DNA of 42,246 nucleotides from Deltaproteobacteria bacterium (lineage in GTDB: Bacteria > Desulfobacterota > Dissulfuribacteria > Dissulfuribacterales > QOAL01). The notes below the pieces were generated by a model that ran no database searches, had not been told where the DNA came from, and saw nothing but the letters and a program-made list of their open reading frames with translations. Location of the stretch: assembly GCA_026995935.1 (NCBI GenBank), contig JALWNK010000046.1:1-42246 (forward strand). The letters run 5' to 3'. Shown here piece after piece: positions 8,377 through 33,035 of the stretch. A program made the position numbers and the translations under genes. Every line of letters starts with the position of its first letter. Position 1 is the first letter of the stretch.

Positions 8377-9477
8377 CTAATACCTGAAGTACCTTTCAGG
8401 AAGGTGATTGGCCAGGTAGTAAACAGTCTTATTAAGGCACTGCCTGATGGCGAATTCCATGGGCGTTTTTCTGTAGCTTTCAAGGCTGCCAGCCATATTG
8501 CCCCTTGCTCCCCCAAAGAGGGTGGCCTTGTTAGCCTTGCCAATGCCCTTTATCTTGTTTGAAAGTATGACCTGCCCAGTTTTAGCATCAGTAACACGTA
8601 CATCAAGGGCGATATGGGCCGTTCTCAAATCGTATCCCGTGGCGACCGTTGGGCTTTTTGATATCAAAACAGCAAGCATGGCAAAGGCCTCTGTATTTAT
8701 GTGTGTCATTTCGAATTCAGAAACGGTCCCCGAAATGATGAGGTCAGGTGTTTGCGGGTTTGTTCCCGGCACATCTTCAATCACGGTAAAGTAGCCGCTG
8801 TCGAAGAGCTGTGTTTCAAGCATCTCCTTCATTCCCTCTCCAACAAAGTTCTTTGCCTTTTCCGCAGTCACCGACAGCTCTCCTACCTTTATGAGGGCCT
8901 TGGCGGGGCCCGGCCTGTTGGAGGCCTGTACAAGTTTGCCCTCCGAGGAAAAGTATGCTGTCTTGTCCACACGGCCAGAGGGGCCGCCAACCTCCCTGTT
9001 TTGTTCCTTAAAGCCCGGGGCAAGTGCAATGGACGGTGCCTGATTCACTGCGTTTATCCGTTCCTTGAATCTCTTCAGGAACTTTCTCGTCATAAAGGGC
9101 AGGTCAGTGGTAAAGGCGATCTCAGGGCCAGCGATGGCCCTGGCATTTACAGCAAGCCCCCCGTCCTGGGAGCGGTTCAACCTGACTTCCATAAAGTAGG
9201 TCATGTAGTCAAGGCTGAGGAAATCCTTCTCCTTTTTTTCCGCAAATATGTACCCCTTTAATGGGTCCTGCTTCTTGATGCCGTATCCCAGTTCCTCAAG
9301 TACGAGCCCGGCCATCTTCACCGCCCTTGCCATGGGTATTCCAGTGCTGGAAGAAGGCGGGATCAAGGTGCTTTTGGAGCTGCTCATGCCTGCGCAGGCC
9401 GAAAGCAGTATAAGGATACATCCAATAGTGACAATCGGTTTCATACAGGTTCTAACTGACGGCTCTTTGAGTTTCAT
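8377..9477 (-). CDS. CsgG-family outer-membrane lipoprotein with extra N-terminal domain
   Basis: 366 residues. The leader ends in lipobox LSAC with Cys28, followed by a Ser/Pro linker. Residues 46-145 form a separate alpha/beta domain (MARAVKMAGLVLEELGYGIK and following) that I do not recognise. Residues 195 to the end match the CsgG family: VGELSVTAEKAKNFVGEGMK, GYFTVIE, LIISGTVSEFE, a glycine-rich turn, and the closing MEFAIRQCLNKTVYYLA helix. CsgG proper forms the outer-membrane pore for curli subunits, but many CsgG-like lipoproteins have other cell-envelope roles. AAGGAG lies 6-7 nt before the ATG. It starts 18 bp after the stop of the preceding CsgG-like gene, so the two are co-transcribed and clearly related in sequence. 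Confidence 0.88.
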   Translation of the reverse strand: MKLKEPSVRTCMKPIVTIGCILILLSACAGMSSSKSTLIPPSSSTGIPMARAVKMAGLVLEELGYGIKKQDPLKGYIFAEKKEKDFLSLDYMTYFMEVRLNRSQDGGLAVNARAIAGPEIAFTTDLPFMTRKFLKRFKERINAVNQAPSIALAPGFKEQNREVGGPSGRVDKTAYFSSEGKLVQASNRPGPAKALIKVGELSVTAEKAKNFVGEGMKEMLETQLFDSGYFTVIEDVPGTNPQTPDLIISGTVSEFEMTHINTEAFAMLAVLISKSPTVATGYDLRTAHIALDVRVTDAKTGQVILSNKIKGIGKANKATLFGGARGNMAGSLESYRKTPMEFAIRQCLNKTVYYLANHLPERYFRY

Positions 9478-9495
9478 GCCTTTCTCCTTTTTATC

Positions 9496-10242
9496 TCACC
9501 GGGAGGTGAAATATTCCAGTGGAATGGAGTTGCACAGATATATGACCGCCCTGTAGATACAGTCCCTTATGGCAAGCTCCATGGGCGTATTCTTGTAAGC
9601 GGCAAGGCTTACCGGCATTGTGGTTGTTCCACCAAAGAGCCTTGTGGCAAGATCTGCTGAAAACGAGGCTGCCGAACCGGCAAGGCGCCTTGCAGCCACT
9701 ATCCTGCCCGTTGCCGTATCAACAACGCGGACATCTATGGCCATGTGTGCGTTCTTACCCATGGCTCCACCTGTAACGGGCACTCCGGGCATGGCTGCCA
9801 TGATTCCCATTCCCCCTGTATTGGCCTCGAATTCAGTTACCGCTCCGTAAACCAGCAGCCTGGCCACTTCCATTTGCCTGCCAAGCCTCGGGGAGCCGGG
9901 CTTAGCCATTTTTGAATAACTGAGTGACTGTTCGGCAGCCAGGCCCTTCATGTCCATGCGGTCCAGGGTATTGAACCGTCTCGATTCAAAGAGGGCAGTC
10001 TCAAGCATTTCCCTAAGGCCGTCTCCGATGTAGGAAGATGCGCCCCTGGCCTTGACGCGGAAATCTCCAACGGCCACATTTGCCCTTGGCCCGTTATAGC
10101 TCATGTCAAGGTATCTTTGGGGTTCCTGGCGGGGAGTAAAGCTCGTCATGTAATTCTGGCTGGCACATCCGGTCCAGAGGGGAAAGGTCAAACATACAAG
10201 CATAAGCAGGCAGAATCGCCCTTTTCTGTTTTCCCTGTTCAT
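9496..10242 (-). CDS. CsgG-family outer-membrane lipoprotein
   Basis: 248 residues with lipobox WTGC (Cys26) after a hydrophobic leader. The CsgG-like domain covers residues about 55-245: VAVGDFRVKARGASSYIGDG, LETALFESRRFNTL, LLVYGAVTEFE, HMAIDVRVVDTATGRIV and the final MELAIRDCIYRAVIYLC helix, closely parallel to the neighbouring copy. It lacks the extra N-terminal domain of that copy. The ATG at 10242 overlaps the previous stop in an ATGA arrangement and has GGAGG upstream; a longer frame to 10497 only reads the preceding gene in another frame. The paired CsgG-like lipoproteins could form a hetero-oligomer, which is inference. Confidence 0.88.
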   Translation of the reverse strand: MNRENRKGRFCLLMLVCLTFPLWTGCASQNYMTSFTPRQEPQRYLDMSYNGPRANVAVGDFRVKARGASSYIGDGLREMLETALFESRRFNTLDRMDMKGLAAEQSLSYSKMAKPGSPRLGRQMEVARLLVYGAVTEFEANTGGMGIMAAMPGVPVTGGAMGKNAHMAIDVRVVDTATGRIVAARRLAGSAASFSADLATRLFGGTTTMPVSLAAYKNTPMELAIRDCIYRAVIYLCNSIPLEYFTSR

Positions 10243-10745
10243 CTTTTGTGTCCTCCTCGGTTTTCCCGGTAGTGGTGTAAGTGGCGGTGGTCCAAGGGAT
10301 ATGGTTGCCAGGGCAGCCAGGGGGCCGGGCCGGAAATTCCCCAGCAGGCAGGGCCGTAGGGATAGGGCAGATAGGGCAGCCATGGGGACGCAGGGGGTAA
10401 AAAACAGGACGGAGGCGGGGGAATGGGAGGAGGCGGTGGAAGGGGGTTGTTTTCCGGGTCTTGGAGCCACTTTTCGGTAAGCCCGAGATGGAGCCACTGC
10501 CTGTAGGCCGAGTAGTAGTCAGAAAGCAGCCGGGCCCTGACTGCCCAGTAATCATAATAGCGGTAGCTCATCTCCTGCTGGCTCCTTTCCCTCTCCTTTT
10601 CAGACCATAGGTAGAGGGCCCTGAAGGGGTCATGCTGTTCAGCCTGTTTTTTATCCTTTGAGGCACAAGAGGCAGCAGGCGGCAAAGAAAAAAGGGCTGC
10701 GAGCACCAGAAGATAAGCTACCTGTTTCAGTTTACGGTTTTTCAT
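10239..10745 (-). CDS. Small proline/tryptophan-rich exported lipoprotein
   Basis: 168 residues, no family recognised. A basic start and hydrophobic segment (YLLVLAALFSL) end in AASC, a plausible lipobox with Cys27. The next ~70 residues are charged and Tyr/Trp-rich (SYRYYDYWAVRARLLSDYY). Then follow runs of prolines and a Pro/Trp/Tyr-rich tail with His/Arg at the end. AAGGTGA lies just upstream of the ATG. It is the first gene of the four-gene minus-strand operon and overlaps the next start by 4 bp. It may be an accessory factor of the CsgG-like pair, since curli systems also carry small accessory proteins, but there is no sequence similarity to support a specific role. Confidence 0.72.
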   Translation of the reverse strand: MKNRKLKQVAYLLVLAALFSLPPAASCASKDKKQAEQHDPFRALYLWSEKERERSQQEMSYRYYDYWAVRARLLSDYYSAYRQWLHLGLTEKWLQDPENNPLPPPPPIPPPPSCFLPPASPWLPYLPYPYGPACWGISGPAPWLPWQPYPLDHRHLHHYRENRGGHKR

Positions 10746-17175: not shown

Positions 17176-17778
17176 ATGAGTAATAAAACATTTGATCAGT
17201 TATTGAAAGAGTCTGTGGCCATTCATGGTCATCTGTGTCCTGGGCAGGTGCTTGGGGTGAGGCTTGCAATGCATGGCCTTGACCTTCTGGGCATAGAGGA
17301 CCCAAAAGGAAAGGACAGAAAGAGGCTCATGGTATTTGTTGAGATAGACAGGTGCGCAACAGATGCCATACAGTCTGTTACTGGCTGCAGTCTTGGCAAA
17401 AGGACCCTTAAATGGATGGACTACGGAGTAATGGCCGCTACCTTCCTGGACCTTGAAAAAGGAAAGGCAGTCAGGATAGTTGCCCGGGAAGAGGCCAGGG
17501 AAATTGCTGCCCAAAAGTTCCCTGAGATAGAAAACAAGTACAAGAGACAGCTTGAGGCCTACAAGGTCATGGACGACAGTGAGCTTTTTTCCGTTCATGA
17601 GGTCAAGGTGGAGGTCCCGGAGGCGGACATGCCAGGCCGGCCAGGACGGAGGGTCCAGTGCCAGGAGTGTGGCGACTGGGTTCAGGATTACCGTGACGTT
17701 CAAAGGGACGGGAAGACCTTGTGCAGGGCGTGTGCCCATGGTGGTTATTACCAGGTAATTTCAAAGGGGAGGTCTTAG
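17176..17778 (+). CDS. FmdE family protein with C-terminal zinc ribbon
   Basis: 200 residues matching the FmdE family (subunit E of molybdenum formylmethanofuran dehydrogenase). The N-terminal motif HGHLCPG is at 17-23 and the later block EIDRCATDAIQSVTGCSLGK is typical. A C-terminal zinc ribbon has Cys162, Cys165, Cys183 and Cys186 (CQECGDW and CRACAHG). In bacteria, FmdE-like proteins occur without the methanogenesis enzyme and their role is open; a link to molybdenum or tungsten enzymes is commonly supposed. The next gene starts with GTG immediately after this stop codon and is MoeA-like, which supports a metal-cofactor role here. AGGAGA lies 10 nt before the ATG. Confidence 0.88.
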   Translation: MSNKTFDQLLKESVAIHGHLCPGQVLGVRLAMHGLDLLGIEDPKGKDRKRLMVFVEIDRCATDAIQSVTGCSLGKRTLKWMDYGVMAATFLDLEKGKAVRIVAREEAREIAAQKFPEIENKYKRQLEAYKVMDDSELFSVHEVKVEVPEADMPGRPGRRVQCQECGDWVQDYRDVQRDGKTLCRACAHGGYYQVISKGRS

Positions 17779-18846
17779 GTGGCTTCTGATAGCTTGGTTG
17801 AGTACCAGTCCATTCCTGGCGTAAAAAGGCTTGTGCCTGTGGAGGAGGCAGTGGGCATGGTGCTTCCACACGACATAACAGAAATCGTTCCGGGGAAAAA
17901 AAAGGGTCCGGCCTTTAAGAAGGGCCATGTAATCCGCACAGAGGACGTTTCAAGGCTGAAGGATCTCGGAAAGTTTAACATCTACTGTCTCGAGCTTGGC
18001 CCGGAGGACGTACATGAAAACGAGGCTGGCGTTGTCCTCGGGCAGCTCGCCTGCGGCCCTGGAGTTGAGACAGATCCAGAGATTACAGAGGGAAAGGTCG
18101 CATTCAAAGCAGCTACCGACGGCCTGTTCAAGGTGGATACGGACATTCTTTACAAGATAAACCTCCTTGGTGACATAATGATTTCAACAAGGCACACCAA
18201 CAGCCCTGTGAAGAAGGGGGATGCAGTTGGGGCAGGAAGGGCCATCCCTCTGGTCATAAGGAGGGACACCTTGAGGCAGGCTCAGGAACTCCTGGAGCAG
18301 GCAGACGGCCTTTTGAAGGTCCTTCCGTGGAAGATTTCAAGGGGCGCCATTGTGGTAACTGGAAGGGAGGTCTTTGAGGGCCGAATCAAGGACGCCTTTG
18401 GCCCTGCCATGACAAATAAGCTTACCTCCTTTGGAGTGGACGTCATTGGCATGGAAAAGGTGCCGGATGACGCTCAAACCATCTCCGAGGCCATAAAAAA
18501 GGCGGTCGAAAAGGGGGCACAGATTGTGATCTGTACCGGAGGCATGTCTGTGGACCCTGATGACGTTACAAGGAAGGGCATAGCCCTTTCCGGTGCAACT
18601 GGCATAACCTATGGAAGTCCGGTGTTGCCTGGTGCCATGTTTTTAGTAAGCTATATTGAAAATATACCGGTACTTGGTATTCCTGCCTGTGGCATGTATT
18701 TTAAGACAACGGTACTCGACCTTGTTCTTCCCAGGATTCTCGTGGGGGAGAAGTTTGGCAGGAAAGAAATCGCCAGGATGGGGCATGGAGGGTTCTGCCT
18801 TTCTTGCAAGAAGTGCCACTATCCCATCTGCCCCTTTGGGAAATAA
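17779..18846 (+). CDS. MoeA-like molybdopterin-binding protein with Cys-rich tail
   Basis: 355 residues of the MoeA-like, molybdopterin-binding type. The N-terminal half has HDITEIVPGKKKGPAFKKGH. The second half carries the MoCF-biosynthesis fold: GAIVVTGREVFEGR, FGVDVIGMEKVPDDAQTISE and VICTGGMSVDPDDVTRKG. It may transfer molybdate or tungstate to the pterin cofactor, or sense the cofactor. It is shorter than typical MoeA (about 400 residues). The C terminus has an added motif with Cys340, Cys343, Cys346 and Cys351 (CLSCKKCHYPICPF), a possible metal or Fe-S site. The GTG start abuts the previous stop, with GGGGAGG upstream, so the two genes are translationally coupled. Confidence 0.85.
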   Translation: MASDSLVEYQSIPGVKRLVPVEEAVGMVLPHDITEIVPGKKKGPAFKKGHVIRTEDVSRLKDLGKFNIYCLELGPEDVHENEAGVVLGQLACGPGVETDPEITEGKVAFKAATDGLFKVDTDILYKINLLGDIMISTRHTNSPVKKGDAVGAGRAIPLVIRRDTLRQAQELLEQADGLLKVLPWKISRGAIVVTGREVFEGRIKDAFGPAMTNKLTSFGVDVIGMEKVPDDAQTISEAIKKAVEKGAQIVICTGGMSVDPDDVTRKGIALSGATGITYGSPVLPGAMFLVSYIENIPVLGIPACGMYFKTTVLDLVLPRILVGEKFGRKEIARMGHGGFCLSCKKCHYPICPFGK

Positions 18847-20923: not shown

Positions 20924-21271
20924 TTAATGCATGTCCGTGGCGTTTGAGGATTCGGGAGGGGATGTCTTTTCAAGGATCATGTGAACATAGCCTTTCTCAT
21001 TTTCTTCCAGGAGAACCCTTCCGCCAACTATGGAAAGGAGTTTTTTCATCTTGGGCACGGTTTCAGGCCTGATGAATACCTCCACCCTGTCTCCTTCTGG
21101 AACCTCCTGGTTTCGAAAGCGCAGACCCACGCCCACTATTGCCTTTCAGCAGTCCTTTCTGCTGTCAATGACAAGGGATACGTCTTTTCCGCTATTTACC
21201 TTATTTTCCTGGCTGCACATGGTTATGAAAGTGGATGAAAGGGCCAAAAAGACCAAAAATAGGGGGTTCAT
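20924..21271 (-). CDS. Candidate selenoprotein: exported TusA-like protein with in-frame UGA
   Basis: 115 residues if UGA at 21148-21146 is read as selenocysteine (residue 42). It sits next to a cysteine, giving the motif DSRKDC-U-KAIVGVGLRF. A normal ORF search splits this gene into two pieces in one frame. The part after U aligns by eye with the TusA/SirA fold: GLRFRN helix, EVPEGDRVEVFI strand, PETVPKMKKLLSIVGG helix, and a closing VHMILEK strand. The usual CPxP motif becomes C-U-K-A. A hairpin after UGA matches the bacterial SECIS pattern. The N terminus has a hydrophobic stretch (PLFLVFLALSSTFITMC), so it may be exported or a lipoprotein. The start is uncertain: ATG 21271, or TTG 21331, which would add a basic segment. 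It lies 37 bp after speB and 31 bp before dusB. Alternatives are a nonsense mutation or sequence error. Confidence 0.72.
21117..21145 (-). promoter_or_regulatory. Candidate bacterial SECIS hairpin
   Basis: Directly after the UGA on the minus strand, 17 nt (21145-21129) lead to the loop GGGTCT (21128-21123). It is flanked by GGGCGT and GCGCTT, which pair over six positions including three wobbles. In E. coli fdhF the SECIS loop AGGTCT also begins 17 nt after UGA. SelB recognises this GGUCU-type apical loop. Confidence 0.65.
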
Positions 21272-31652: not shown

Positions 31653-33035
31653 TTATGATTTGGTTACAGGGTAGCCTGCGTTGATCCATGCCTTCATGCC
31701 CCCGGCCAGGCTGTGCACATGGGTGAAGCCATGTCTTTGCAGATAGCTTGCGGCAATGTTCCCCCTGTAGCCAATTGCGCAGGTTACGATCACCTCCTTG
31801 TCCTTGGGAATGTCAGGGATTTCCTTGAGGAGCTTGTTTAGGGGCAGGTGTACCGCTTCCTTTATCCTGCCAGCTGCCCATTCCGCAGGAGTTCTCACAT
31901 CGAAGAGGTAGTCGTAGTTGCCAGTCTGAAGTTTTTCATAAAGCCTGTGGGCTGAAATCTGCCACAACTGTCCGATTGGAAGTCCAGCCTCCTGCCATGC
32001 GGCTATTCCTCCATATAGATATCCCAGTATGTTATCGTAACCTATCCGGTGTAACTGTTTGGTCATTTCATCATAGGCAGATTTACTGGTAACCACCAGG
32101 ATTAGTTGTGCCTCCGGTTCTATGACCATGCCTATCCAGTTGGCACTTTGAGGTGCCAGGCCAATATTTATGGAGCCAGGTATATGAACACCACCAAAGG
32201 CCGCTGCATCCCTGGTATCAAGGATTACTGCTCCCTTCTTTAAAAGCCCATTTACCTGTAATGGGCTAAGATCCCGTGTTACAGGGCATCGCTCCAGAAG
32301 TGGCGCCCCTTTCAGGTTTGTGTTGATGATGTGGGAAAAACTCTTGGGCCTTTCTGGAAAGTCCTTTTTCATGACCTCCTGAAATTCCTCAAAGGAAAGC
32401 CTTAGAATAGGGTTGTGGGCCATCTCGAAACCTACGGTGGAATTGGGTTTTGAACTCATGCCCTTTCCGCAAAGGGAACCCTCGCCGTGGGCCGGGTAAA
32501 TCTCCATGTTTGAAGGAAGCCTGCCAAGCTTTTCATGCAGAGACTTAAAAAGATTTTCCACCTGTTCATCAAGGTGTTCCTTGCCTGCCAGGTCTGGACG
32601 GCCTATGTCACCCACAAAAAGACAGTCCCCGGTGAGCACGAGCCAAGGGGATTCCCCACGAGACAGGTCAGTTACAAGGATGGACATGGAATGGGGGGTG
32701 TGGCCAGGGGTTTTAAGGAATCTGAGGCGCACCTTGCCGAACTCCATGATTTCATGCTCTCTTACCTCCTTGTGGTCAAATTCCACAGGAGTCCCTTCCA
32801 TGAAATATATGTCAGCCCCGGTTCTTGACCTGAGTTCCTGGCTTCCGCTTACGTGATCTGCATGCACATGGGTCTCAAATACATGTGTTATCTCCATGCC
32901 GTTTTCCCTGGCGGCATCAAGATAGTCCTGAACATCTCTTTTGGGATCTACTACGCAGGCCCTTTTGGCCATGGGGCAGCCGATGAGATAGGAAAGGCAT
33001 CCCATTCCCTTGACTGAAAACTGTTTGAAAAACAT
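31653..33035 (-). CDS. MBL-fold/rhodanese protein (persulfide dioxygenase-like)
   Basis: 460 residues. The N-terminal half is an ETHE1/persulfide dioxygenase-type metallo-beta-lactamase domain: FETHVHADHVSG, KTPGHTPHSMS, LTGDCLFVGDIGRPDL and YPAHGEGS. Two rhodanese domains follow. The first (about 260-350) has VVTSKSAYDEM at the active-site loop with no cysteine and is probably inactive. The second has Cys419 in VTCAIGYRG. Such proteins oxidise glutathione- or protein-bound persulfide or move sulfane sulfur. AAGGGGGA stands just upstream of the ATG. No sulfur-metabolism neighbours adjoin it directly, although a TusA-like gene lies 10 kb away. Confidence 0.9.
   Translation of the reverse strand: MFFKQFSVKGMGCLSYLIGCPMAKRACVVDPKRDVQDYLDAARENGMEITHVFETHVHADHVSGSQELRSRTGADIYFMEGTPVEFDHKEVREHEIMEFGKVRLRFLKTPGHTPHSMSILVTDLSRGESPWLVLTGDCLFVGDIGRPDLAGKEHLDEQVENLFKSLHEKLGRLPSNMEIYPAHGEGSLCGKGMSSKPNSTVGFEMAHNPILRLSFEEFQEVMKKDFPERPKSFSHIINTNLKGAPLLERCPVTRDLSPLQVNGLLKKGAVILDTRDAAAFGGVHIPGSINIGLAPQSANWIGMVIEPEAQLILVVTSKSAYDEMTKQLHRIGYDNILGYLYGGIAAWQEAGLPIGQLWQISAHRLYEKLQTGNYDYLFDVRTPAEWAAGRIKEAVHLPLNKLLKEIPDIPKDKEVIVTCAIGYRGNIAASYLQRHGFTHVHSLAGGMKAWINAGYPVTKS

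Follow-up and report, generated by a model that had tools for sequence, protein, structure and literature searches.

A very likely selenoprotein with a predicted TusA-like fold and a vicinal Cys-Sec pair in Desulfobacterota

The window, that is, the whole stretch of 42,246 nucleotides analysed here, carries on its minus strand a gene at positions 20924 to 21271 that starts with an ATG at 21271, runs through a TGA at 21148-21146 and ends with a TAA at 20926-20924. Its translation (MNPLFLV...DSRKDCUKAIVGVGLRFRN...TDMH) has this one TGA as its only internal stop, and when the codon (21146 to 21148) is read as selenocysteine (Sec), as suggested by a TGA in all homologs and by the presence of selA, selB, selD and tRNA-Sec in the genome, the product is a protein of 115 amino acids with a single Sec at residue 42. 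The preceding codon, a TGC at 21149 to 21151, encodes Cys41, which forms a vicinal Cys-Sec pair with U42. Immediately upstream lies speB, of the agmatinase family (TIGR01230, 21309 to 22184, minus strand), itself preceded by the S-adenosylmethionine decarboxylase gene speD (TIGR03330, 22190 to 22621, minus strand), while the next gene downstream is dusB (TIGR00737, 19885 to 20892, minus strand), whose ATG is 31 nt from the selenoprotein stop. The three neighbours score above their curated cut-offs and point in the same direction as the selenoprotein gene. Of the 17 loci tabulated for the class, 12 have dusB behind the Sec gene, and speB or a gene for a ZnuC-like ATPase is found upstream in most. 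A first-pass annotation, made without database searches, had described the minus-strand frame with its single TGA and preceding TGC, these coordinates, the speD, speB and dusB context and a loop GGGTCT 17 nt after the TGA, and all of these descriptions proved correct.

The gene is not confined to this genome, and wherever it was found its TGA is retained: 54 of 54 homologous loci from the class and its phylum relatives carry TGA at the Sec codon. When 60 related genomes were searched with the protein, 25 proved to carry the gene, and in each of them the Cys-Sec site has its in-frame TGA; profile searches found the gene, always with TGA, in 25 of the 46 genomes searched in the window's class, in 18 of 56 of a second class and in 32 of 395 across the phylum. 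Five further phylum matches lack the TGA (G324, G318, G203, G265 and G109). Among these, G324, a YedF, and G318 and G203, both TusA proteins, were considered as Cys forms and rejected after being read residue by residue, since they show the ordinary CP motif; G265 and G109 resemble the YedF of G324, judging only by the length of their frames, about 213 amino acids. No Cys version of the family was found in the class and phylum searches (other phyla were outside their scope), and TusA and YedF are Cys relatives at a distance only. Homologs with Cys at the Sec position are usual for selenoproteins, but not necessary (PMC12013277), and search methods based on Cys/TGA pairs would miss this family because no close Cys homolog was found. 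Named relatives are metagenome-assembled genomes of Deltaproteobacteria, including a SeepSRB2 bin; the contig scan behind them used two exact peptide patterns, so that mainly the first of the subfamilies described below was covered. No relatives of the Sec gene were found on viral contigs.

Two subfamilies can be distinguished by the motif around the Cys-Sec pair: the first, in the window's class, shows DSRxDCUK(A/G)hxGVGLRF, and the second, elsewhere in the phylum, shows DYRxDCUx(A/G)(F/Y)xDVxLxLR. Both Cys41 and Sec42 are invariant in the family alignments, the cysteine in all of A1, A4 and A5. Downstream of the TGA, dN/dS is 0.05-0.18 in six of nine close pairs and 0.23-0.59 in the remaining three, which shows that the segment 3' of the TGA is protein under purifying selection.

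A bacterial SECIS hairpin lies at 21118 to 21133 on the minus strand, with a 6-bp stem (21133-21128 with 21123-21118) and the loop GGTC (21127-21124); the element GGGTCT (21128-21123) begins 17 nt after the TGA. It is important to stress that the window's single hairpin is not convincing by itself, as six of six pairs would arise by synonymous chance with P = 0.05 and the folding energy of the 40-nt segment is unremarkable (P = 0.27), and that the case for a SECIS rests on the family. Across 52 distinct homologous sites (stem positions 15-20 and 25-30, where the U of UGA is 0), 98.4% of the pair cells are paired, as against 62.2% in a null obtained by redrawing synonymous codons (maximum 68.6% in 200 draws) and 65% at most when the partner arm is shifted by 1-3 bases. 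Compensatory two-sided changes occur at all six pairs, at one of them in 23 of the 52 sequences, and one stem pair is G-C in 23 sequences and A-U in 26. The wobble positions of the stem are frozen (GGC in 22/22, CGC in 24/24); the loop Gly uses all four codons, and Gly codons further on also vary freely. The second loop base (21126 in the window) is an invariant G (52/52). In two loci (L129 and L130), a change from Asp to Glu on one arm and a change from Arg to Leu on the other go together as RNA pairing demands, and the stem is kept. The hairpin therefore covaries across homologs, and the covariance check proposed in the first-pass annotation came out in its favour. The window's sequence also folds with an outer helix between CTTTC and the region of the UGA, which is not conserved, and the Rfam model RF00031 gave no match here nor in any control genome, which makes it uninformative. 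In a third variant (DVRARL; L157 and L172), the loop-closing pair is G-C and the loop CGGG, with an intact stem. When compared with the SECIS of Escherichia coli fdhF, whose Sec site, confirmed in 5,368 of 5,426 E. coli genomes, has AGGTCT at the identical distance, the family shares a loop (A/G)GGTCT equally far from the UGA, whereas its stem is of the GGCGUA or GACGUA type and the fdhF gene is unrelated.

The machinery needed to read the codon is encoded in the same genome, with scores over the cut-offs for selA (617.6 bits), selB (388.8 bits with its neighbour in frame), selD (367.7 bits, with an in-frame TGA of its own; G000:C48:27361-28284) and tRNA-Sec (74.4 bits). Because as many as 353 of 395 genomes of the phylum have selB, its co-occurrence with the gene is only weak evidence. 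TGA also ends normal reading frames in the window (6 of 30 long ORFs), so recoding must be local to the selenoprotein gene. Recoding signal, conservation and machinery are all established at the level of sequence, and together they make it almost certain (probability about 0.97) that the gene encodes a genuine selenoprotein, although no experiment shows Sec in the protein. The first-pass annotation had proposed this identity, naming the absence of selA, selB or tRNA-Sec, or homologs that end at the TGA, as refutations, and suggesting a search for homologs with TGC or TGT at this codon; the machinery is complete, the homologs continue through the TGA, and nearly every check it had proposed was favourable, but the homologs with TGC or TGT that it had hoped for were not met in the class and phylum searches.

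From a structural point of view, residues 33-102 (20966 to 21175, minus strand) are predicted to form a TusA-like domain of beta-alpha-beta-alpha-beta-beta order, based on AlphaFold2 and structural matches. Block means of pLDDT are 94-97 over residues 31-100, and the models built from alignments of the two subfamilies have a core of high confidence. A plain Foldseek comparison with the PDB ranked methyltransferases highest (E about 5e-3), none of them significant, and a sequence search of solved structures returned chance matches only. The ranking with TusA first comes from a second look with VIA-align: the six best matches of the first-subfamily model all belong to the TusA family (YeeE-YeeD (TsuB) entries, the SirA-like DSY4693, TusA in two IscS complexes and YhhP) with Z 9.1-10.8, the next row having 7.7, and the same six lead for the second-subfamily model with Z 8.8-10.5, though by a small gap (next rows up to 8.2). 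In profile comparison, hhalign gave 94.8% against TusA with broader alignments (shuffled columns at most 4.4%) and 10.8% with a shallow TusA set. The gathering score of PF01206 (28.6 bits) is not reached: one member of the family, L150, scores 18.4 bits, 4 of 30 members of alignment A5 match below the cut-off (best E 2.4e-4), and no first-subfamily member has a PF01206 match in the Pfam scan. Kinship with the TusA/SirA fold, which the first-pass annotation had also claimed, held; it is confirmed by structural comparison of the predicted models and by profile.

The canonical CPxP motif is absent, with CU[K/R/S/A] standing in place of CP, the residue after Sec being Lys, Arg, Ser or Ala. A TusA HMM built in this analysis matches L150 over its full length, setting U on the catalytic Cys and deleting the proline. 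In one profile alignment, the register is off by one, with Cys41 instead of Sec42 over the TusA Cys; for this reason, the replacement of the catalytic Cys by Sec, with the proline being what is lost, is regarded as likely rather than certain. This corrects one detail of the first-pass annotation, in which CPxP was said to become C-U-K-A.

The boundaries of the family with respect to known proteins can be drawn along similar lines. With TusA/SirA/YhhP (PF01206, including TsuB/YeeD), it shares the fold, the size of about 75 residues, a reactive chalcogen where helix 1 begins and, in the second subfamily, the D-x-R-G-x-x-C layout, whereas it differs in having Sec for Cys, an adjacent invariant Cys, no CPxP proline, a score below the Pfam cut-off and, in some members, a signal-like N-terminus. 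YedF (TIGR03527) likewise contains a TusA domain, matched by the Sec-family profile, and is associated with selenium metabolism (PMC5322559), but it has Cys in a CPxP motif and a C-terminal DsrE domain, in contrast to the single domain of 75-80 amino acids, without DsrE fusion or NCBIfam match, of the Sec family. DUF3343 (PF11823) is of similar size and has been proposed to act in selenium trafficking as a Se/S carrier (PMC5322559), yet its conserved residue is a Cys and Pfam scans of the members gave no PF11823 match. Finally, HgcA, SaoL, SaoC, SaoB, MbdU, KCU-star and CopZ-like proteins (PMC13188914, Table 1) also have adjacent Cys and Sec; unlike them, the family has no match in NCBIfam 20.0, home of most such models. 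L188 and L024 carry the Sec TusA-like domain as an in-frame fusion that follows a nicotinamidase domain (NF008623, 183.9 bits, cut-off 174).

The 119 prokaryotic selenoprotein families inventoried in 2026 (PMC13188914) include no TusA/SirA member, the Sec family is without a model in both NCBIfam 20.0 and Pfam, and no report of a TusA-family selenoprotein was met in the open papers searched, a coverage that leaves out most subscription papers and preprints. The suggestion of a new or rarely described small selenoprotein, made in the first-pass annotation, is supported to this extent. Automatic annotation would split or drop such a gene.

The localization of the protein is less clear. A hydrophobic N-terminal segment (21215 to 21271, minus strand) looks signal- or lipoprotein-like, and several class members have a similar N-terminus; the window's lipobox (ITMC) is a poor one, and some relatives have a better match. 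In most class relatives, a further ATG stands 16-18 codons ahead of Sec, often preceded by a strong Shine-Dalgarno match; at this place the window has GTA, its ATG being lost. From such starts, most relatives would appear to begin about 17 codons before Sec, and the family is inferred to be largely cytosolic. Export of the window's protein, inferred from sequence alone, is conceivable, and the first-pass remark that it is perhaps exported is neither confirmed nor excluded, with the signal-like N-terminus set against the internal starts of relatives. In a number of loci (L002, L003, L005-L008, L013, L014, L018 and L019), the internal ATG is conserved and has a good Shine-Dalgarno sequence, and several of these proteins have a lipoprotein- or anchor-like N-terminus ahead of it, which suggests two sites of translation start. 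That long and short forms are made from a dual start may be entertained as an untested idea.

In the second subfamily, the gene context brings in selenium regulation. In all six loci of families f58 and f43, a LysR gene stands directly before the Sec gene, and four of these regulators exceed the cut-off of NF040786, the selenium metabolism-associated LysR (259-273 bits vs 250); of the remaining two, one reaches 213 bits on a partial read and that of L165, unscanned, is assigned by membership of the same sequence cluster. A metallo-hydrolase gene lies further upstream in 5 of the 6 loci. This neighbour is found only in the second subfamily (f58 and f43), and not in the window's class. Both YedF and LysR_Se are linked to selenium in the literature (PMC5322559).

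It seems marginally better than an even bet (roughly 0.5-0.6) that the protein serves selenium homeostasis by carrying or relaying chalcogen (Se/S), a function that is inferred, as no transfer data exist. TusA proteins carry sulfane sulfur on the CPxP Cys. For YeeD, mass shifts have been assigned to persulfide and thiosulfate-derived adducts at that residue (PMC11073785). In this reading, SelB binds the hairpin just after the UGA and Sec is inserted next to the invariant Cys, most likely at the sulfur-accepting position of TusA where helix 1 starts and the helix-capping proline of CPxP is lost; by analogy with TusA, the selenolate would then accept zero-valent chalcogen (S or Se) from a donor and hand it on, while the neighbouring Cys may resolve the adduct through a Cys-Sec bond that a thioredoxin-type system would reopen. 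The chemistry, the partner and the direction of transfer are all inferred. The adjoining selenium-type LysR of the second subfamily points, again by inference, to selenium homeostasis over general sulfur transfer, and it lends some help to the first-pass notion of a protein carrying sulfur or selenium, which remains an inference. The form of selenium used by SelD in vivo and its delivery system are incompletely understood (2026 review, PMC13188914), and a Sec-bearing protein of carrier fold beside a selenium regulator makes the question of selenium supply to SelD a testable one.

The alternative that survives best, and that cannot be discounted, is a redox selenoprotein and not a carrier, in which the vicinal Cys-Sec pair cycles as a selenenylsulfide (thiol-disulfide, peroxide or sulfane reductase). 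In its favour are the invariance of both Cys41 and Sec42, the thioredoxin reductase gene that adjoins L174 of the second subfamily on the opposite strand, and the fact that most uncharacterised selenoproteins are presumed redox-active (PMC13188914); against it stand the TusA carrier fold in place of a thioredoxin fold, the difference of the vicinal pair from the usual CxxU / UxxC motif, and a recurrent second-subfamily neighbour that is a selenium regulator and not a redox partner. A bolder version of the carrier reading, which we consider unlikely, would see a dedicated selenium carrier of selenoprotein-making Desulfobacterota, holding Se on its own Sec for delivery, for instance, to SelD under a LysR_Se regulator, perhaps with two forms in hydrothermal-vent and seep lineages, one signal-bearing and exported and one cytosolic, from two start codons. 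Still less credible is a selenium-status sensor, in which UGA readthrough reports the supply of Sec-tRNA and the protein acts on the adjacent LysR regulator: the Sec gene does lie directly behind a LysR_Se-type gene in six loci, and the protein is small and always Sec-dependent, but the linkage is restricted to families f58 and f43 and the active-site region is conserved in the manner of a catalytic site. As for the TGA being a true stop, followed by a separate gene from GTG 21136, a pseudogene or a sequencing error, the mechanical ORF list does give two ORFs flanking it (61 aa from TTG 21331 and 70 aa from GTG 21136) and TGA is a normal stop elsewhere in the window, but conservation of the codon in 54 loci of many genera, dN/dS well under 1 downstream, a stop that would cut the TusA fold after strand 1, ahead of helix 1, and hairpin covariation with complete Sec machinery already contradict this reading and all but exclude it.

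Other genes of the window include one on the minus strand (31653-33035) that combines a metallo-beta-lactamase with two rhodanese domains, possibly a persulfide-handling protein; an FmdE-domain gene and, behind it, a gene for a molybdopterin-binding (MoCF) protein, on the plus strand (17176-18846); and two tandem genes for lipoprotein-like proteins with CsgG domains on the minus strand (8377-10497).
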